Translations under genes and position numbers: made by a program | Assembly: GCA_903813345.2 (NCBI GenBank) | Contig: CAIIXF020000009.1 | Coordinates: 19,617,759 to 19,681,758, forward strand | Source: Owenia fusiformis | Lineage: Eukaryota > Annelida > Polychaeta > Sabellida > Oweniidae | Length of the DNA: 64,000 nt | Direction of reading: 5' to 3' | Part shown: one piece after another, positions 38,968-63,554 of the stretch | How the letters are laid out: each line of letters begins with the position of its first letter | Numbering within the stretch: the stretch's first letter is position 1 | The notes under the pieces: model-generated | Told to the model about the DNA's origin: nothing | The model's database searches: none | What the model saw: the letters and a program-made list of their open reading frames with translations, nothing else

Positions 38968-41900
38968 CTAGTGCCTATCATGTTGACTCCAATGTGGGTG
39001 ACACAGTTGTCTCCACATATTACTAAACTCTCTCCGAAATTCTTTTGAATAATTTGCATACAATACTGGATGTAATGCTCTCGTTGAAAACATTAAACAA
39101 TAACCAATCGTCTCTAAATCGCCAAATAATTGAGAATATGCATCACTCGAATTTTGTGAAATCTTTTTTGCTATTATAACAATAGGTAGAGGGGCCCAAG
39201 AAAGAATGAACGCAGTCACTATGTACATGGATCGCCTAGCAGCTACTGATTGCATACTTTGGTCACGTGTAACAATGTCGGGTTCGTTCTTCGGCGTGAT
39301 TGGTGGAGTTATAGATTTGATGAATCCGTTCTTATTTTTCTCTTCTTTGTTTGGTATCGGCTTTGAAGTTGAATCGACTGTGTCCCTTTGATCTTCTAAG
39401 GTATTTGATAGAGAGGCGTACGATCGTTTCCTTACGAGCCCAAACTTTGAAGTTGATTGTGGTTTATCCATGCCGGAGGTTTCAGGATTGACTTTACTTT
39501 GCTTATCGTGTATCATTGAGACGCTCGTAAAGGACGAAAAGTCTTGCGTCTCTATTGGCGGACCACCTATTGTCCGTTTCATAGTTAAGATTGTATTCGT
39601 GTTAGCTTTTTCTAGAGCAAGTGCAGCGAGAGCAGCCCAACGTTTCCGGATCTTCAATTTGAACAATTCTGACGCATTACCTGCACTGGGTGTTGGTGAA
39701 TTTGGTCGATTCGATAAATCCCCGACTTTGTTAACTTGAGGATGGACGTGTTTTCTTACGATGAATATTATTCTGACGTAAACAACCGTAACCAGCAATA
39801 GAGAAATGACACCTAAAGGTACCAACGTGTACATTAAGAGAGGAACTGTGGCCTCATCCAGATGTTTCCTCATCAAACAGCGTTCAAAGAAAGTGGACGT
39901 TGTATTAGGAATTGCCACCTCGAGTGTTGCAATTAGTACCCCAACAATCCAAGATGTGAACGTAGCTAGCTTTCTCCGGGCATCAAAATATTGTAACCTA
40001 AAATAAAAATAAAAATGTGTGATTACATGTAGTCTCATCAAAGTTTGTCTGCAACGAATTGCACTGTTGTAACTTTTGAACTACCATTCTTCTGGTTTTG
40101 GGCAATTTCTTTTATATCTTCCTAAACTGACAGAGCAAGAACTCGTCAAATTATTGTTTTTATTCTAGAGCATGAAGTCATTGCTTGGAACTAGCCTAGT
40201 GTAAAAATTACTTTTACACTGTCTTATACGGTATCTAGCCAGATGGTGCCATTTTGTTATCTAATTGATGTGCTGTATATATATTTATTCAGGTATGCGG
40301 TTACTGAGTGTGTGCATGAATAATTACTATCTCTAGAAAAACAACATGGTGCATTAGCGATATGCATTAGTTAATAGCGATCTATTGTATTTGTATTTCA
40401 TTTGATAAGCAACTCTTACGTGAAAATATTATACACTGAAAAACGTTTCTGCGGAGATATGATATCATTGCATACAATCGTTTAATGGTTACCAGGTATG
40501 ACAGGCGGAGTGGCATTTACCAACTCCTCGATAATCAGAGTAATAAGTTGGAATACAGAGGCATTAATATAATAGCGGACCTGCGCAGGGGGAATAGACA
40601 GAAACATGGAAACGACGAGTGTTTCTAAGTAGGACGGATGTGATAAATGCTACTCTATTTGAACAATAATCACATTTGAGAATAATACTCTGAACTGAAT
40701 TCTTTTTTTTTCTAATTTATCAAACTTGAGTACGCTGCACTGGTCATATTATGAGCTGATATTGCAAGAAACACGAAACTTCAATTAAGAAGAGAGTTTG
40801 ATCAAATAGTTGTTAGTGAGTTCGATTCCATATACGTAAAGTGGAACATAGACTGGTATGACAATTTTGACTTTTACGATATAACGTGACTATATCTATT
40901 ACCTAGGACTTTAACTGGCAGGTTTTTGAATGCTTTAATGTATCAATTGTCAAGAATTACATTATTAAAGGATTTAAGTCCAAGACTCAATGCATTGTTT
41001 GCTGAATCATAGCATGAAGGTGCTGTTTCCAAACCTTTGCATGACCACGCAGCGGGAATGTTAAGTTTAGGAAACAACGCCTGAGTGGAATGAAGCGGCT
41101 TCAATGCATTGAGTCTTGGGCTTAAATTATTTTCACAAATGGCAATTTGTTTCTTTAAAATCATCTAAAAGGAACGAAATCACTAAAAGAACACATTTTC
41201 TCAAGTTGGCAAGTCATCAAATCCAATGTGAAAAATCCATTCATCACCATGACAACTGTTTAACTAGCGACCATGCATGTGTTATTGATATTTCACACAC
41301 TGTTCATTATGTGAATACTCTGTTCGAATTGGCTGGGATCGGACACACTTTGCCTATTGTGTGAATTACATTTCATCTTACATTTCGAACATATTTTGGA
41401 TACACACTAGCTGTAGTAAAGCTGAAAAACATTATAGGACTATCCTAAAAAATAAATAAATTATAAATGGATGGATGGATGGATGGATGGATGGATGAAA
41501 AGAAAAATAACATTATATCACCAATGTTACTCACACGAAAAGATATTCCGCATCAACCGACTAATCATCCAATTAGATAGTGTATAACATGCGCCAATTT
41601 TTTCAACTTCCTTGGATATTCCGTAATTTACAGTTAATGTTTATTACTTAAGTATGTTTATAATTATTGTTTTGGATTTCCTTCTGCATTGCTTGATTGA
41701 AGATCTTATAGAGTATTAGAGTCTCTATTCCATGACACAAAATTATTAATGAAATAGAAAGGACGGGTGATTAAACAATTAAAACGCGAGTTTAGCTAAT
41801 GTATAAAATAAGAAACAAAAACCAACGAATACAAAACAGTCAAAGGATATGCGATCACCTTACCTTGTCTGTGGTCCAACTATAATTTTATAACGTTCAA

Positions 41901-42372
41901 TACTTATTGCGATTAACGTTATTAATGTGACAAAATTGCACGAGGTTGATATAAACGTTTGCAACTTGCACCATGGCAATCCCAACACGTTCCCAGAGGT
42001 GTTTATAACTGTAACTGCAAACGCTAATGGGACAGCGAGCCCACAAGCGAATACATCAGAAACACTTAAGTTTGTGATGAGTGTATTGTTGCTCGTTCGT
42101 AAATGTTTATTTTTCACAAATGTGAAAATAACTAATACATTTCCTAGTAATCCGACCAGAAATGTAGGAATAAGTAATATTCCTGAAATTATATTGGCCG
42201 AAGTTGTAAGTGGATTTATCATTTGGAATTGTTTGATGGAATCCAAATCATATACGAGGCTGTTAGAGGTAAAGTTATTGTGGTTGTTGATAGCGCCATC
42301 TTGATTAAATCCATGTCTTCCCAATGTTCTGTGATGTTGTATGATCTCTTTAATATTTTTCAGAAGAGTCAT
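38968..42372 (-). CDS. Orphan class A (rhodopsin-type) G-protein-coupled receptor, two exons, 512 aa
   Basis: Exons 42372-41864 and 39997-38968 (minus strand), joined in phase 2 just after helix 3. Seen directly: GNVLVIF of helix 1 (N78), NLSVSD of helix 2 (D106), the disulfide cysteines C135 and C210, ERY at 159-161, W186 in helix 4, P230 in helix 5, SWAPLP with W437 in helix 6, and HPVLY at 479-483. Sequons N33 and N124 fit an extracellular N-terminus and first loop. The third intracellular loop is very long (of about 170 residues), basic and Ser/Thr-rich, as in receptors controlled by phosphorylation. Counting from C3.25, position 3.32 is Ser, so a classical amine receptor is unlikely. There is no retinal lysine at the helix-7 position, so it is not an opsin. 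The ligand is unknown; a peptide or melatonin-like group is possible. The NPxxY Asn is replaced by His. Confidence 0.88.
39998..41863 (-). other. Intron of the receptor gene (1.9 kb)
   Basis: On the minus strand, donor ACAAG/GTAAGG and acceptor TTTTATTTTAG. It contains the GGAT microsatellite at 41465 and a hairpin formed by AAGTCCAAGACTCAATGCAT (40976) and its inverse at 41100. No gene seen. Confidence 0.75.
41465..41498 (+). repeat. (GGAT)n microsatellite
   Basis: Seven or more perfect ATGG units, in the intron of the receptor gene. Confidence 0.95.
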
Positions 42373-42791
42373 TCTAACTGATTCTCGTCACCTGCTCCGT
42401 AGACTAACCTTATTATATCTTGTCATTTGATAACTCCCATTCAATATCATATGTAACTTCTTTGTCTACATCTTAATCAAAACATGCCACAATGCATGTA
42501 GGCATCTTAGCCTATGATTCAATGAGCTTGTGTTGCTTAAACCCGTTTACCATTTTATGTCGTAATTAATCGAAGCATCGTTTATAAGGTAGAATTCAAA
42601 GAATACATTTACTAATGATTATATGCTGATGTAATTAAGCAGCAGTATTATTATCCATTAGTCGCATTATATGAGCCTCCCTTCCTTATTGCTGCACTTA
42701 CAACAGGAAAGCAATTAAAAGGTCGATTTATAAAACCTCGTTAGCTTATTTCTCCAGATATAAATATTTACTTCCCAAATTCCAATTACGA

Positions 42792-51500: not shown

Positions 51501-54500
51501 ATGTCAAGCTTACTCTTCTTGGCATTGTTCCTTGCGATGACATGTCATACCAATGGCTTCTTAAAGAAGGACCATGCCGTTACTATCACTGGCTGCTTTA
51601 AATGTGGAGGGTACCCAATAGCCAACTGCCGTGTGAAGCTTATGGATGAAGATTTGATATTTCACGACACTTTGGCCGAATCATGGACTGACAACAATGG
51701 TTGCTTTGCACTTTCTGGAAAGGGGCGGGATGGATTGTGGGGGAGGCCGGATATATTTGCAGAGCTTGAGTACAACTATTTAAGTGAGTGGCTACCCTGG
51801 GTTGCTACAGGTGTATGAACCCTAATAGCTTCATCATGAGAAACTATACCTCTCTATTAGTTCCATTCCACAAAGCCATAAGCTAGTTTGAGTCCGGCCC
51901 ATACAATTTTGATCCATCAAAGGACCATGCCAATCGAATCAATTATAGAGATCTACGATATCGCGTTATTTGCTATCTCGTTGAAATTCTTTTTATCTCA
52001 TATTAATCATAAGATTAATGAAGATGATAACACTTATGATACGAACTTAACTTATTGAAGAACTGATAAACAAAACAATGATATTTCAGATAAAATGCGT
52101 ATTCGAAACTTTTGGGGATTCACGAGAGATGCGAGATCTTCTGTAAAAGACAACCACTCTGGTTTTCACAACTTCGGCATGATCAACATCAATGACGAAC
52201 ATTGTCGAGCATACGTACGTTTCCGCGCTGCAATCATTGACTATATCTCACGATCCGGTAATAGTGCATTGCCCTATAGTTACCTTAAAGTCCAAACTAA
52301 ATCAGTGCTGACTGCTGGGAAACCTTGGGCGACGACGGATAAAATCAGACTACCATCGGGATATTCTTTGGATGCTGAAACAGCCAAGCATGAATTAGCC
52401 CACACCATAAGACACACGTTAGACGGCAGCATACTCCATGCTGCTTACGACGCTGTCAGGTAATGGAATGTTTTTCACCGTGAACGGAAAGTACATGAAT
52501 CAAAATAGCAATTATATAGCGCGCATATAAAACAAGCGCTAATTTTCTACTTCAGATACCCGTTCGTGAATAGAACGCGAAATTCCAAATTTCACGTTTA
52601 TGATAATGGGCAATGTATACGTGTACGTTGCCGTTTCAATTTTATATATTAGCTTAAACTCTCCAATATTTAAAGTACGCTACTAATGTTTCTTGCAACA
52701 TACACCGGTATGTCCTACTTTTATAAAGTAGAAGACACCCTTGGAACAGCTGGACAAAGCAAAAAGCCCTCCCCCAAGACCAGATTTTTTGGCATGGAAA
52801 GAAACTTTGCAGGATCCCTTTCTTTAGAAGCTATGGCTGTCTTATGAAGCGATATTTAAACTCCTTATGATTCCTTATATAGCCACGGGGAGGGAAAGAA
52901 GAGCCCCACGAGGCCACGTTGGGGTAAAGGAGAAACCGTTTGAATCTGCGCTTAAAATGATAATACTTTAAAGCGAATGAAATAAGCTTAGTGGCTTTTC
53001 TCGTCCTTATTGCCCCGCTGCTATTCCCTAGTCTTGCTTCAAACCAATTATATGGTCTTGAGATCATGTACAGGGTGGTCAAAAATGGAAACCCTTTCTC
53101 TATTTTCCTCGTATCTTTGGCATTCTAGAAGAACCCCTGATATTTTACACAATTGAACATCATACAATTTCCTACCAGTCTACTATCTTCCGTGACCATC
53201 AGTCTGACAGTCACGTGCACAATGTTACAGCACTTTAAAGAACACGTTCCGGTAGTCACTAATGCGCTGTTGGTAATATGTAGCGCATTAGTTATTTTTG
53301 TTATCCTGACACTACACTTTAATAGTTTTCGTTGAAGTTCAGCACACAGATAGAGAGAATGCTATTATTGTCAGTCTTTTGCTGTAAAAGCTTTTTTGAC
53401 TTTGACCCAGTTTTGAGATATGGTGTCCAGAAAATAGGTCAACAAAAAGGTTTTTCAAATTCAACGTTTGAGTTCTCAAAATATTGGGAATTTCCTCATG
53501 ATTCCGAATCTGAAATCAGAATTGAAATGTTTCGGTTTAGATTCTAAAACATTTTGAAATTTCGAAAAACCAGTATGTTGATATCTCAATGTTAAGTCAT
53601 GGGATAAGCGTTCAATTTACCATTCTAGCACTACTAGCACAACACATTTAGCGCTTTCCTAGATGTGCCGATAAAAAAGTTGGTATGAGAAAAAACGGTG
53701 AATTGTTACTGTCATAAATTAATAATGCCACGCTTCGTGTTTTTTAAAGGTTTTGCATATTTATGATAAAAGCCTACAATACGCTAAAAACAGAATTCAT
53801 ATTCAACATTTCGGAATTTTTGAAAATTTGCTGCCACGTACGGTGTTTCAGGTTAAAATATGTCCCAGAATTCATTTTAGTCATTGTTATGTTTGTTATG
53901 TTTTATTTATTTCCTAAATTCCAAATAATACAAGTACAATCACAATAGTGGAAGACACCCCAAGGGGCATATAATCCACGTTATGTTTAAACAAAAAATA
54001 TTTACAAGTAGCAAAACTCGTACAAGAAATCAGTGCTTATTAGAATTAAAGATCGACACTAAATATTTCACATTCGGTTGGTCCCATCCTCCATCCTCCT
54101 CTACCCACGCTATAAAAGTGAATTTTTTTACGCCAGAGATTTGTCTCCAGAAAAGTTAGACTTTGATTAACACCCTATGCAGACAGAGCCTGTGGGAAAT
54201 ATTGGGTGCGGCGCAAATGAGCGGAGGGTGCGGAGCTAACGGTCATTTTTGAATTTAAAATTGGGATATTTCTGAAACTAAGCCGTTTTGGGACTTCAAA
54301 TATACCAAGATATGTGTATTTGACACCAAATATCAATAAAATTGTGAAAATAGTAGTGCAATTCATTTTATAGCGACGCAGTATGCCTTAAACATTTCCC
54401 AGACCTATATATTTTGAGACTATCCTTTTAATACTGCGTCCCCAGCATTCATAAAAAAATGGTGTTCAAGATACACTACCCATGCAAATTATTTTTGCAT

Positions 54501-57500
54501 CTTGGAAGCCAGGCAGTATCTGTGTGATTTTATAAAAATTCGGAAATGTTCTTCAGATATGAGCCCCTCTAAATATTGGGTGCGGAGCTACGTTTATGGA
54601 GCTGCTCCGCACCCAATATTTAGAGGGGGCTCATATCTGAAAAAATTTCCGAATTTTTATAAAATCACACAGATACTGCCTGGCTTCCAAGATGCAAAAA
54701 TAATTTGTATAGATAGTGCACCTTGAACACCATTTTTTATGAATGCTGGGGACTCAGTATTAAAAGGATAATTTCAAAATATATAGGTCTGGGAAAGGTT
54801 TAAGGCATACTGCGTCGCTATAGAATGAATTGCGCTACTATTTTCACAATTGTATTGATATTTGGTGTCAAATACACATATCTTGGTATATTTGAAGTCC
54901 AAAAACGGCTTAGTTTCAGAAATATCCCAAATTTAAATTCAAAAATAACCGTTAGCTCCGCACCCTCCGCTCATTTGCTCCGCACCCAATATTTCCCACA
55001 GGCTCTGTCTGCATAGGGAGTAATGATGTTAATTGTTGAGCAAGTGTAATTTTAAATTCTTTTTGAAGGTGGAAAGAGTATTAGAATGAGCACGTTTATG
55101 AGGTAAAGTGTTCCACAGGTCTGGCCCTGTCTTAGTTATAGAGTATTTTCCCATGTTTGTTCTGAACGTACTTGATCTAAGATTGCATATTTGTCTGGTT
55201 TGATGAGCATGTACATCAGAATTAAGAGTGAAGTAGGATCTGAATTGCTGGGAATATGTTTTGTTTACGTCTTTAATGCATTTGAATAAATATGTAGCAA
55301 TATTGAAATGGACAATTTGAAATATGCTTAATATGCCAGCTTTTTTGAAAAAAGGATGTGTATGGTCACGCATCTGGCAATCTAAATCATACAATCTTAC
55401 AAATTGTTTTTGCAATCTGTGTAATTTCAATAAATTTGTATGTGGAACACTTCCCCAAATTAGGATGTTATAGTTTAAGTGTGAGTAAATTAATGAGTAG
55501 TATATTGTTTTAAGGCTTTTTTGATCTAAGTTATCCTCTATTCTGTGAAGAACGCCTAGTATCTTGGATATCTTAGTCTCAACATGTTTTATATGCGGCT
55601 TTCAAGATAAATTTTCGTCGACTAGAGTGCCAAGAAAATTACTAACATTGGTTCCCTCTAATATAGTGTGATTCATATTTAAGTTTATTTTGTTGTAATC
55701 TATTATTTTATTTGATGTTTTGAATATAATATAGTTAGTTTTTGGTGCATTTAGGGCAAGTTTATTGCATATGAACCATTGATTTTGACGAGTTCTGTTT
55801 TGACGGTGGTATTTAGTTGTTCCAGATTTTTGCCAGAAAATATAATATTGGTATCATCAGCATAAAGAAACATTTTTGCAATATCTGAGCACTTGTAAAT
55901 ATCATTAGTATATATTATAAACAGCAGGGGTCCTAAAATTGTGCCTTGTGGCACACCACAGCACAAATGAAGAACATCAGAATCAGCATCGCCTTCTATT
56001 TGAACAAATTGAGTGCGGTTACTTAGCAACTTTCAAAGATGTATCGCAAAAAGCTCGCGCACGCATTGTTACACATTTTGTGGCGTAATCCCAAGGAGGA
56101 TTGGAAGCCAGGGTTCCAACTCGATATTCTTTAATCTCCACGCATGCGTCATTTGCTATTCGTGTCTGTATAATTTGTACGACTGCATGGAGAATGACCC
56201 GATACTCTCCAACAAAGCTATCGCTAGGTGATTGTTTTGCAGAATATCGGTGTTGCATTCTGGGAGCCAATCCTCCTTGGCGTAATCCAGAGGATCCTCG
56301 CTTTTAACATGGTAGAATGTGACGTTTTTGAGAAAAATGTACACAAATGAAAATCCTTTCGTCCTCCACATTTACCTCTCTATCTCAAAACATTTTAGAC
56401 GAATAACTCTGATATCATATATATAATGTTAATGGGCTAGGAGCATCATAAAACACGAATCAATTGATATTTTAGGTGAAATAAATATACGTGTTGCTGT
56501 GCTTGAAAATAGGCGAATGGCGTAAATAAGCCCTATTTTGATGAATTTTGAAAACCTTTCGTCCTCCACTTTTCCACATACAACAGAAAACACATACTTT
56601 TGCGAACAAAATCAACTATTTATTAATAAACTAGAGTTTAGGAGCAAAATAATCATGTATGATTTATTAAAAATTGATCTCGTATTTTTTGTTTAATGTA
56701 CACCTGAAAAGTTGAAGGAACAAAAAAATGAGCAGAAAAGGTCGCTGTCAACAGATTCTATTTTTCAAACTCTATGACGTCACAATATGGGACGCTTACT
56801 AAAATTCATCCTTTGAAATAAAACTTCAATCTACCTTTATCAAGACGAAAAATAAGTATAAAAGTCAGATATTGTTTGAGTTATGAGCGTTTAAAGACGA
56901 AAAATAATTCAAAATGTAACGTGTCAACAGGGAATATTTGCCAGATGTTTTGGTAAAAAACTCTTTTTTTAAAAAGAACGCGCAAGAATTGTGAACGGAG
57001 TGTAGTTGATCTAAAAACTTCATCGAAACAGCTTTAAAATGATATACAACTTTAATTAGAATATTATTTTAGAATCCGGGGAATCAAAGTTACATTCACG
57101 CGATACCCCTAAAAAAACAAATGCGCCACCTTTTTACGACACGTCAAACCAGTCAGCTGCGAGACCTCTGATGCCATAATATTTCATTCATCTCCTTTAC
57201 TAAATTAGCTATACATTCGTTATATATCCATCATATTTTTAGACCTGATTATCATTTTAGGTTCAAATACGCCCAGTACCATACGTGTATTAAAATCACA
57301 AATTTTGGGTTTGCCTTCAACGAGGGCTGGGCGGAGTATTGGGAGGGCCAGTGTAGCTGCACATTGGGTGACGGCAAAGACATGCGTGTTGAAGGGAATG
57401 TTGCTGCAGCGTTGTGTGTCCTAGCAAATTGCACAGGTGACGAGAAAATGGTGAATACCCTGGAGACAAATGAAGGAGAAATTCATTCATACAATTCCTT

Positions 57501-57546
57501 CAAAAATGCACTGTGTGCGAAATACCCGGGAGGAAGTTGCTGTTAA
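51501..57546 (+). CDS. Secreted transthyretin-like plus HExxH zinc-peptidase-like protein (3 exons, 312 or 321 aa)
   Basis: Exons 51501-51810 (or 51783), 52090-52459, 57261-57546. Residues 1-19 are a signal peptide ending near HTNG. Residues of about 24-95 match the transthyretin-like (TTL) pattern: GCFKCGGYPIANCRVKLMDED, then a TD-x-x-G-x-F turn, an LSGKG loop and PDIFAELEY. The second part has HELAHTIRH (H204, E205, H208) and, across the last intron, NEGWAEYW (E248 or E252), the layout of a gluzincin zinc site with a downstream glutamate. Six or more cysteines fit an extracellular protein, and the chain ends GGSCC. Two donors for exon 1, GTGAGT after 51783 and GTGTAT after 51810, are in the same phase and differ by 27 nt. 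AATAAA lies at 57623. TTL proteins of nematodes are secreted and bind extracellular partners. I know no named family with this pairing; function is not assigned. Confidence 0.78.
54173..55018. mobile_element. 846-bp near-perfect palindromic fold-back element
   Basis: The ends read CCCTATGCAGACAGAGCC and its reverse complement. The two arms of about 420 bp mirror each other around about 54595, where CTCCGCACCCAATATTTAGAG meets its complement across a short spacer. Both arms contain an equivalent short open frame (54366-54175 minus, 54825-55016 plus) whose 63-residue translations are almost the same; I take this as a by-product of the symmetry, not a gene. It sits in intron 2 of the TTL-peptidase gene. 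The high arm identity indicates recent origin or gene conversion. A clear target duplication was not found. Confidence 0.85.
55022..56035 (-). pseudogene. 5'-truncated non-LTR retrotransposon (reverse transcriptase C-terminal half)
   Basis: On the minus strand, 56029-55751 encodes GVPQGTILGPLLFIIYTNDI and FLYADDTNIIFSG, the RT palm motifs around the catalytic YADD. After frame lesions and a stop near 55600 the frame resumes with SLIYSHLNYNILIWG and, at 55430-55029, a C-terminal region with LQKQFVRL, WNTLPH and a final Lys-rich FKKNLKLHLL segment. This order is typical of L2/CR1/Jockey-type elements. No endonuclease domain is present, so the copy is 5'-truncated and dead. It lies antisense inside intron 2 of the TTL-peptidase gene, with its 3' end about 10 bp from the palindrome at 54173-55018. 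Confidence 0.85.
56082..56289. mobile_element. 208-bp inverted-repeat element (family shared with 24121)
   Basis: Left GGCGTAATCCCAAGGAGGAT and right ATCCTCCTTGGCGTAATCC are inverted. It lies just upstream of the retrotransposon fragment in intron 2 of the TTL-peptidase gene. Confidence 0.65.
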
Positions 57547-57622: not shown

Positions 57623-57628
57623 AATAAA
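57623..57628 (+). terminator. Polyadenylation signal of the TTL-peptidase gene
   Basis: AATAAA lies 77 nt after the TAA stop, a usual distance. Confidence 0.6.
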
Positions 57629-61600: not shown

Positions 61601-62934
61601 TTCCAGGGGGGTTCACATTTGACAATTTTGGCCCAAATATGGCTAAAATCACTTGAGAAGTGCTCAAAATGGTGAAAAACTGCATGATTTTGAAAGAATT
61701 TTTGGCCAGGGGGGGGGGGGGGGGGGGCGAACCCCCCTGGCTACGGGCCTGTGACGTCACATCCTGAGAAAAACTTAGTACGCGAACATTCCCGTTGGCG
61801 GTTTGCGTTGTGAAAAGAAGTGATGCTTAACCTCTCTATTGAAATACCCGTGTTAGTCCATTTTTCCCAACAATTTTTAGACCTTAGAACAGTACATAAT
61901 ACACTCGTACACGTATTTGTATTTCCCATCTCAGATTTCTCCATTTTAATGATGAATAGGTCCAGTCATACACCCCCTGGGGTGTCATAGCCTGTATAAT
62001 GTTGTAATTTTTGTAATGAAAACTGAAATAAATTATTTTGAAATTGAATTGAATTGAAGAGTACATGTAGAGTATACTTACTGTAAGCAGCTTGTTCGTA
62101 TTTTGGCTTGTACCCACAGACTCCATAATCACCCAACTGTTTCTTGTTACAAAGGTCACCGTCGCAGAAGTACCAGAGGGAATCTCCTTGGTATGCACAT
62201 TGTTTGTTAGGATCAACACCAAGGGACAAGTTCTCCTTGTTGGCACAACCACGATACACAACTACAGCAGGAATGAAAGGTAAAATATCAAATTACAGAG
62301 AGATGATGGCATACTTATTGAAAGGGATATTCTGAGTACACAATCGACTAATGTTAATTAGTATTATAACATAAATTGAACAAGCACTTGGACAGAGGAA
62401 ATCATTAAATCAACTGAAACCATGTGGATGTAAAATTGCGTAAGTACACAAGAAAATTAAATATGGTAGATTGCCAAAATACTCATCCTTGGCCCAAGAG
62501 TAATTCATTGCATTGCATTATCTGCAATGAGAAAGCAGTGAAGGACAGATCTTGAAGGATAAAGGATGAAAATACTATGTTTTCACTGTTTGTGGTTTCG
62601 CTCCTCCACTAATATTGAAAGCAAAACACGTTAGCGGGGCTACCAGTTTGCGGTAATTCTTTTAGCTTCTTTATTTTTTCTTATTTGTTTTTGTCTTGCG
62701 TTATATCTCTAATTTTTGAATGGTGATTAAATAAAGCGTTTGACTTACGTCCATTTGGATCCTTTCTTATGAAACACTGCCCGGAACTACATGCCAGTTT
62801 GTTCAAAGAGGCGGCATTAGCAGAGTCGATGAGAGCACACGCCATATTACCAGCGTTAGGTGATACGACATCCAAGATCTTTGGGCGTTTGCTGACGTAA
62901 CCGGAGGGAGCATAGTTACAATCGTAGCAATGAG
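58667..62934 (-). CDS. Ly6/quiver-like cysteine-rich secreted protein with Tyr-rich tail (5' exon not found)
   Basis: Exons 62934-62749, 62261-62082, 60706-60542, 58911-58667 (minus strand), in phase throughout, 257 residues plus a partial codon. Exons 1-2 form a three-finger (Ly6) pattern: HCYDC at the start, a middle pair CSSGQC, then VYRGCANKENLSLG, QCAYQGD and a closing CDGDLCN. The RGC and CDxxLCN pieces resemble the quiver/sleepless subgroup. Unlike GPI-anchored Ly6 proteins, it continues. Exon 3 has eight further cysteines and the end of exon 3 plus start of exon 4 read NCPYGTAFDEYTKVC, like the last part of a peritrophin-type chitin-binding domain; that match is tentative. The last 60 residues are a repeat of Tyr-Pro-Val units (YPVPTY, PVYKP, YEVPVYGVPY). 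The signal peptide exon must lie upstream of 62934; I found no convincing one up to 64000. TTTATT at 58586 reads AATAAA on this strand. Likely an extracellular matrix or secreted adhesive protein. Confidence 0.72.
58969..59800. mobile_element. 832-bp element with about 220-bp inverted ends
   Basis: The left end TACCCTCCATAATTTTGGCA and the right end TGCCAAACTTATGGAGGGGA-GTGTA are inverted. The match continues through the block AATTTTCGACCTATTGTAAT (and its complement at about 59150). It lies in the intron between the third and last exons of the Ly6-like gene. The same terminus occurs at 16884 and 48190 inside the 2.4-kb elements. Confidence 0.75.
61552..61751. mobile_element. Short 'GTAGCCAGG' inverted-repeat element, copy d (best preserved)
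   Basis: The ends CAGGCCCGTAGCCAGG and CCTGGCTACGGGCCTG are perfect inverse complements. A run of 17 G lies just inside the right end. It is 200 bp, in an intron of the Ly6-like gene. Confidence 0.85.
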
Positions 62935-63554
62935 CTATAAGAAGGGAGATATTTGATTAATATAAGAATACAATTCTAACGGTATTTGCAAAGGTATATG
63001 TTCATATAAAATATACCCATGTTAATGAGGTTCTATATTTAAAATTAACATTTCGAAAACAAAAGTCGAAAATATTCAAACAGCATAGACATGTTACTAC
63101 TTATATGGATTACTTTGATAATAGTATGTGTAATTGCTTTTGTGTATACAGTGATCGGAGTTCCATATATACAATAAAAACATTCTATATACAGTGAACC
63201 CTATGTACAATATAACTGTTTTCACAAATATTCAAATACGTTTTAAAATTGTATTATAAGGGTTATTGTCCCATCCTTTTCATCGAAACAATTCTTCACA
63301 AGTTAGTCCAACGGGGCAAATTATACTGCGACCATATCTCACTGTGATCATACTAGTCGAAATTCGTGGATTCAGTCCTGCACATGTTAATACGTGTCAT
63401 AGGTCCAGGCCTCTGTACTTTTGAATGGAATAATAGTGCACATTTGTTTAAATAATCTATATTACCTCTTCCGTGTATATTATACTTCATTGATTTACCA
63501 ACTTGTAGCTACGATATAAACACACATTCGGTGATATTGTTACTGCGATATATA
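62935..63554. other. 5' flank or first intron of the Ly6-like gene
   Basis: The acceptor at 62935 requires an upstream exon ending in phase 1. I found no start codon followed by a hydrophobic signal peptide and donor here on the minus strand, so the first exon is likely further right than this window or very short. Confidence 0.5.

Follow-up and report, generated by a model that had tools for sequence, protein, structure and literature searches.

The gene at positions 51501 to 57546 of the window, by which we mean the whole 64,000-nucleotide stretch of Owenia fusiformis DNA analysed here (G+C 34%), probably encodes a secreted zinc peptidase, a member of the gluzincin clan, that carries an N-terminal transthyretin-like (TTL) β-sandwich and belongs to an undescribed family. 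The gene lies on the plus strand, and splicing of its three exons gives a coding sequence of 939 nt and a product of 312 residues. Exon 1 (51501 to 51783) is an open frame that ends at the donor AA/GTGAGT and encodes a putative signal peptide (about residues 1 to 20) and the first part of the TTL domain; exon 2 (52090 to 52459; acceptor TTTCAG, donor GTAATG) encodes the end of the TTL domain and the first half of the peptidase-like domain, with the motif HELAHTIRH; and exon 3 (57261 to 57546; acceptor TTTTAG, stop codon TAA) encodes the second half of that domain. Two AATAAA signals lie 3′ of the stop, at 57623 and 57659. An earlier note on this DNA had placed both ends of the gene correctly, and the splice model works; the note's joined protein of 321 residues was too long, the product having 312, and the motif residues that it numbered H204, H208, E248 and E252 are H195, H199, E239 and E243. 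No paralogue of the gene was found within the 64-kb window by tblastn (other matches E 1.2 or worse). Elsewhere in the window, the minus strand carries exons of a rhodopsin-type G-protein-coupled receptor at 38971-40080 and 41863-42387 (PF00001, E 1.3e-11 and 4.1e-19), and short Cys-rich frames at 61969-62292 and 62684-62956 that look Ly6- or three-finger-like by eye and for which Pfam gave nothing at E up to 0.1.

We compared the joined protein with libraries of known families. The Pfam TTL family PF01060 matched residues 30 to 77 at E 3.5e-9, with 37.6 bits against a curated cut-off of 24.9, and the TTL pattern that had been read at the N-terminus is thus real; sequence comparison suggests that the domain extends into exon 2, to about residue 128. 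The protein begins with a hydrophobic run, LLFLALFLAMT, which we took by eye as a signal peptide and from which we infer that the protein is secreted. For residues 132 to 312, neither Pfam nor NCBIfam nor PHROG yielded a family at E up to 10, in searches where the HMMER filters discard most matches above about 0.1, and a single-sequence search of the PDB gave no match to the peptidase-like domain. The exon 2 piece alone drew DUF7366 at E 0.28, far under the cut-off of that family. The same domain in the relatives described below gave scattered weak matches to the family libraries, the best being SprT-like (E 0.046) and M43 (E 0.053), with MXAN_6640_HExxH at E 0.081 in one of the ten domain sequences. 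A PDB search with a profile of the family returned the TTL domain of 3uaf at E 1.6e-5, along with a lipoxygenase at E 0.0033 and a metzincin at E 0.87.

An artificial bait profile, run once against bacterial and archaeal genomes, matched 62 stretches, three of which encode relatives: L010, from a delta-proteobacterial MAG, and L011 and L012, both from Thermoleophilia MAGs. When the natural window protein was compared with each of these within its single locus, it matched L010 over residues 39 to 312 (E 4.7e-36), L011 over residues 27 to 307 (E 2.1e-31) and L012 over residues 189 to 307 (E 3.4e-20); by this measure, the similarity of the joined protein to all three exceeds chance. Profile searches added L018, L022, L019, L025, L031 and L033, which brought the bacterial relatives to nine, in eight distinct genomes. 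Since a few bacteria carry such intron-free relatives, the window protein looks like the member of a real family and not like an artefact of the gene model. As judged from these matches, the family occurs in a small number of environmental bacteria and in one eukaryote or more, apparently an animal. The peptidase domain was present in at least 2 of 249, 3 of 282, 3 of 144, 3 of 35, 1 of 246, 2 of 399 and 6 of 289 genomes in the individual samples, all of these counts being lower bounds from overlapping samples in which part of the first-look candidates was scored; the remaining matching genomes, few of which were read, gave partial profile matches only, mostly to the TTL part. Within the sampled groups the family is rare and its distribution patchy, and phyla beyond these were reached by one pattern-based scan only.

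The N-terminal domain can be followed in most of these relatives. PF01060 was seen in six of the ten family sequences at E up to 1: L018 passes the cut-off (36.3) and L010 falls below it (19.7), with L011 and L012 giving no match. Identities to the window TTL domain came to 30 to 35 of 103 to 104 positions in L010, L018, L022 and L031, to 20/98 in L011 and 19/97 in L012, and to 9 to 15 of 72 to 79 in L019, L025 and L033, whose N-terminal regions are β-like by eye only. According to these comparisons, the order of a TTL domain followed by a peptidase-like domain is no one-off fusion; it recurs clearly in L010, L018, L022 and L031 and less clearly in L011 and L012. Additions at the C-terminus vary, with a CARDB domain in L011, Cys-rich repeats in L019, L025 and L033, and charged tails in some others (the non-CARDB additions read by eye); the window protein has none. 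In a tree of the ten sequences, the fork that holds the window protein has support of 48/36 and the window protein forms a long branch, and it is therefore left unplaced.

The searches also brought up proteins beyond the nine relatives. Large bacterial frames of 539 to 1425 residues (L026-L029, L056-L059) match the TTL part of the family profile only, and in the bacteria that carry them TTL-like domains seem to be used in further settings as well. A decayed bacterial relative (L016/L017; G155:C320, about 1947 to 2430) has a TTL-like part with an internal TAG and a tail like that of L012, and no peptidase domain was seen in it. Two bacterial proteins of about 930 to 945 residues (L060, L061), with the motif HEFGHS[VI]H and a downstream SEG[LM]AD, matched the family profile at E 7.9e-4 and 8.8e-4 and are possibly members of another gluzincin family. 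In the viral collection, protein-based scans yielded no relative confirmed by tblastn at E <= 1e-3; pattern scans of viruses gave seven loci, of which the script's motif filter left out L005, L006 and L009, and the four that were read (L003, L004, L007 and L008) proved unrelated. Plasmids and phages gave weak matches only by tblastn (E 0.1 or worse), the best plasmid match running against the sense of the annotated gene, and a plasmid search with the relative L022 found nothing.

Beside the bacterial genes, we found no common partner among the eight neighbour frames tested, which flank relatives other than L011 and L012 and were selected with a GC3 filter; such a filter may overlook genes, and in L068 it picked out none. 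A TonB plug domain lies before L010; the G623 gene has a cellulase before it and an AMP-binding enzyme after it; a murein endopeptidase and a DUF6782 putative metallopeptidase lie near one G522 gene; DUF1152 follows the G659 gene and a SIR2/STAND protein the G330 gene. No named family was found beside the G635 gene.

The peptidase-like domain contains both motifs on which the earlier note had built its reading. HELAHTIRH (residues 195 to 203; 52389 to 52415, plus strand) supplies the proposed zinc ligands H195 and H199 and the proposed catalytic base E196, and NEGWAEYW (residues 238 to 245; 57319 to 57342, plus strand), which is encoded by the last exon, supplies the proposed third ligand E239 in an ExxA motif. 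In the alignment, H195, E196, H199, H203, D206, G207, H211, D215, Y221 and H225 are identical in all ten sequences, as are A236, N238, E239, G240, A242, D258, I292, H293 and F298. Of the two glutamates that had been put forward as the third ligand, E239 is preferred because it is identical in 10/10 sequences, whereas the position of E243 holds Glu in five, Gly in three and Asn in two; E239, which sits in the ExxA motif of gluzincins, is likely to be the third ligand of the zinc. With E239 from a later helix, H195 and H199 would hold the zinc and E196 would activate a water molecule, and the TTL domain would probably bind or position the substrate, or anchor the enzyme at a surface. H293, of an IHS motif (57484 to 57486, plus strand), is a candidate that may steady the transition state, a role that we guess by presumed analogy with H231 of thermolysin. 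Between H199 and E239 lie 39 residues, and 39 to 41 across the relatives; according to one source, known gluzincins have 24 to 64 residues between the second His and the Glu (PMC3267712), and another states that the ExxA motif places the third zinc ligand in gluzincins (PMC6414381).

The same conservation bears on whether the protein is an enzyme at all. The zincin fold might have been kept in a non-catalytic binder, in which the zinc or the TTL domain would be structural or would bind a ligand; bridging between molecules is a role of TTL proteins such as TTR-52. Many zincin families do include members with broken active sites, as one paper states (PMC3650047), but the window protein and all nine relatives keep every residue predicted to act in catalysis or as a ligand, among them E196, and we consider such a binder improbable.

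Two predicted models, of relatives and not of the window protein, bear on the fold of this putative peptidase; L010 and L011 share 67/174 and 70/173 identities with the window peptidase domain. The AlphaFold model of L010 (318 aa, pLDDT 83.4, pTM 0.85) has a β domain at residues 5 to 117 followed by a mainly helical domain, in which HEFGH (192 to 196) lies in helix 189-203 and NEGWAE in helix 230-246, the latter holding E236, the equivalent of window E239. Two hallmarks of gluzincins are found: the HExxH motif on the active-site helix, by the window motif and by helix 189-203 of the L010 model, and a glutamate helix with an ExxA motif, by E239-GW-A242 (Glu and Ala in 10/10 sequences) and helix 230-246. 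The PDB matches of the L010 model were led by the lipoxygenase 5ek8 (TM 0.25 by query length), and next the β domain matched TTR-52 of C. elegans (3uaf; TM 0.64 by target length); numerous transthyretins ranked lower, and there was no peptidase among the best 50 of 948 matches. For the L011 model (pLDDT 76.0, pTM 0.76), the best 30 PDB matches included the elastase of P. aeruginosa at ranks 2, 3, 8 and 12 (best E 4.1e-4), vibriolysin at rank 7 and M1 aminopeptidases at ranks 22, 23, 27, 29 and 30, all of them weak fold matches with large rmsd (query TM 0.29-0.39 for the M4 rows and 0.28-0.37 for the M1 rows); most of the other matches in the best 30 were of about the length of the β domain. 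In a viral structure library, too, most matches were of that length, and an M1-like aminopeptidase stood at rank 46.

We further compared the family with known peptidases by aligning profiles with hhalign. Fifteen of the same bacterial genomes supplied the rows for profiles of M1 (11 rows), M4 (5 rows) and M43 (11 rows), and these rows were picked by motif: 11 of 20 loci for M1, where HExxH plus [EN]EG at a spacing of 16-20 was required; 6 of 8 loci for M4, reduced to five when L096, read in a wrong frame, was dropped; and all 11 tried, of 12 loci, for M43. The family matched M1 at E 6.7e-4 over 90 columns in local mode and at 1.9e-5 in global mode, in an alignment that pairs HExxH with HELAH and NEGWAEY with NEGFATY. 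Against M4 the E value was 0.026 local and 0.76 global, and against M43, a metzincin family, 0.0017 over 22 columns around HExxH. As yardsticks between families, M1 versus M4 gave 5.5e-4, M1 versus M43 0.0035 and M4 versus M43 0.015. Reversed and three shuffled controls gave 0.067 or worse, and 0.17 or worse against M1; against the five-row M4 profile the reversed control reached 0.054, little worse than the 0.026 of the family. The hhalign probabilities were low throughout (27% for M1 local, 53% for M1 global and 30% for the M1-M4 yardstick). Because M1 versus M43, a pair of different kinds, gives 0.0035, the HExxH motif alone can reach a level of about 0.0017. The profiles put the M1 match at the level seen between families of one clan, a placement that depends on the co-alignment of the second motif; they do not show kinship with M4, the similarity being hardly above the reversed control.

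These comparisons also weigh on a metzincin-like zincin, in which the third ligand would follow soon after HExxH, as H203, D206 or H211. All three residues are identical in 10/10 sequences, the hhalign match with M43 at E 0.0017 spans 22 columns, and the sole PDB matches to the peptidase-domain profile were three chains, none significant (E 0.66-0.93), that we take to be metzincin-type. The metzincin motif is HExxHxxGxxH/D, however, and in the family the Gly at +7 is replaced by Arg (9/10) or Ala (1/10) and position +10 carries neither His nor Asp but Leu, Ala or Tyr; the M1 alignment, moreover, covers both metal motifs. We judge a metzincin-like arrangement somewhat less probable still than the non-catalytic binder.

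The gluzincin reading presupposes that the exons have been joined correctly. Intron 1 (51784 to 52089, 306 bp, phase 1) and intron 2 (52460 to 57260, 4801 bp, phase 2) both run GT...AG. Near the joint of intron 1 (residues 94/95), no more than one gap occurs in any of the six TTL-aligned relatives, and the three divergent relatives lack four residues at the end of the stretch. Residues 210 to 226, which span the exon 2-3 joint at residue 218, align without a gap in all nine intron-free bacterial relatives and support this join independently of RNA; the earlier observation that the metal motifs are split by a 4.8-kb intron and still in frame is thereby supported. Intron 2 contains mobile DNA: a nearly perfect fold-back (palindromic) element at 54170 to 55021, with arms of 289 and 97 nt that are 96% and 94% complementary, respectively, and that probably belong to a mobile element, and, antisense to the gene on the minus strand, a LINE-like reverse transcriptase fragment at 55029 to 56032. 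PF00078 matched the fragment at 55754-56032 only (E 3.2e-8), a part that probably derives from a LINE, and no reverse-transcriptase match was obtained for the 190-aa frame at 55032-55601. A TTL exon misjoined to an unrelated exon, or an unexpressed relic, might be suspected from so long an intron with mobile DNA, but is very unlikely given the ungapped bacterial proteins, the open frames, the canonical splice sites and the retained key residues.

Taken together, these data point to a gluzincin-type peptidase joined to a TTL domain. The protein type had been called undescribed, and neither Pfam, NCBIfam nor PHROG holds an entry for it; an undescribed family, most likely inside the gluzincin clan, is the better description. 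Neither a name for the family nor a combination of a TTL domain with an HExxH or gluzincin peptidase was found in the open-licence literature or the family libraries tried. The paper on zincins cited above holds that numerous HExxH motifs fall outside known domains, and it expects further zincin families that are as yet undescribed (PMC3650047). By the Pfam, NCBIfam and PHROG libraries, the window family looks like one of these, and its presence in a eukaryote and scattered bacteria, together with its absence from the libraries tried, would add a branch to the gluzincins; the same distribution would make the family a test case for the transfer of genes between bacteria and animals. A bolder proposal, which we offer tentatively as a possibility on the unlikely side, is that the TTL-plus-gluzincin unit moved complete between bacteria and animals and that the His/Asp-rich stretch between the metal motifs (H203, D206, H211, D215 and H225, all identical in 10/10 sequences) forms a second metal site or a regulatory site unseen in M1 and M4. 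Few activities are known for TTL proteins, which form a large family in animals, and a TTL domain joined to an apparently intact peptidase domain provides a testable enzymatic hypothesis for what TTL can steer.

Among known systems, the TTL family PF01060 resembles the protein in its N-terminal domain, which lies above the family cut-off, and the model of the L010 counterpart matches the structure of TTR-52. The solved TTR-52 chain has 117 residues, and to our knowledge no second domain, whereas the window protein adds a zinc-peptidase-like domain behind the TTL domain. The FP0506-type elastase of Flavobacterium psychrophilum shares HExxH plus ExxA and was proposed from these as a new gluzincin family; in the available part of its description it is a 296-residue surface lipoprotein of some Flavobacteriaceae only, with no mention there of a TTL domain, and this description sets it apart (PMC6414381). 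The M4 peptidases (thermolysin, LasB elastase and vibriolysin) resemble the family in the weak fold match of the L011 model and in an NE pair at the position of the third ligand in four of the five M4 rows kept, and no M4 Pfam match was found in the window protein or among the families listed for the ten domain sequences. The likeness to M1 (PF01433) lies in HELAH and NEG[WF]A, which co-align over 90 columns; PF01433 itself was absent from the matches of the window protein at E up to 10 and from the families listed for the ten domain sequences. In M1, the spacing is HExxH-x18-E, with about 18 residues from HExxH to the third glutamate, in contrast to 39 in the window protein and 39-41 in its relatives, and the window family further differs from M1 in carrying H203, D206, G207, H211, D215, Y221 and H225 after HExxH in all ten sequences.
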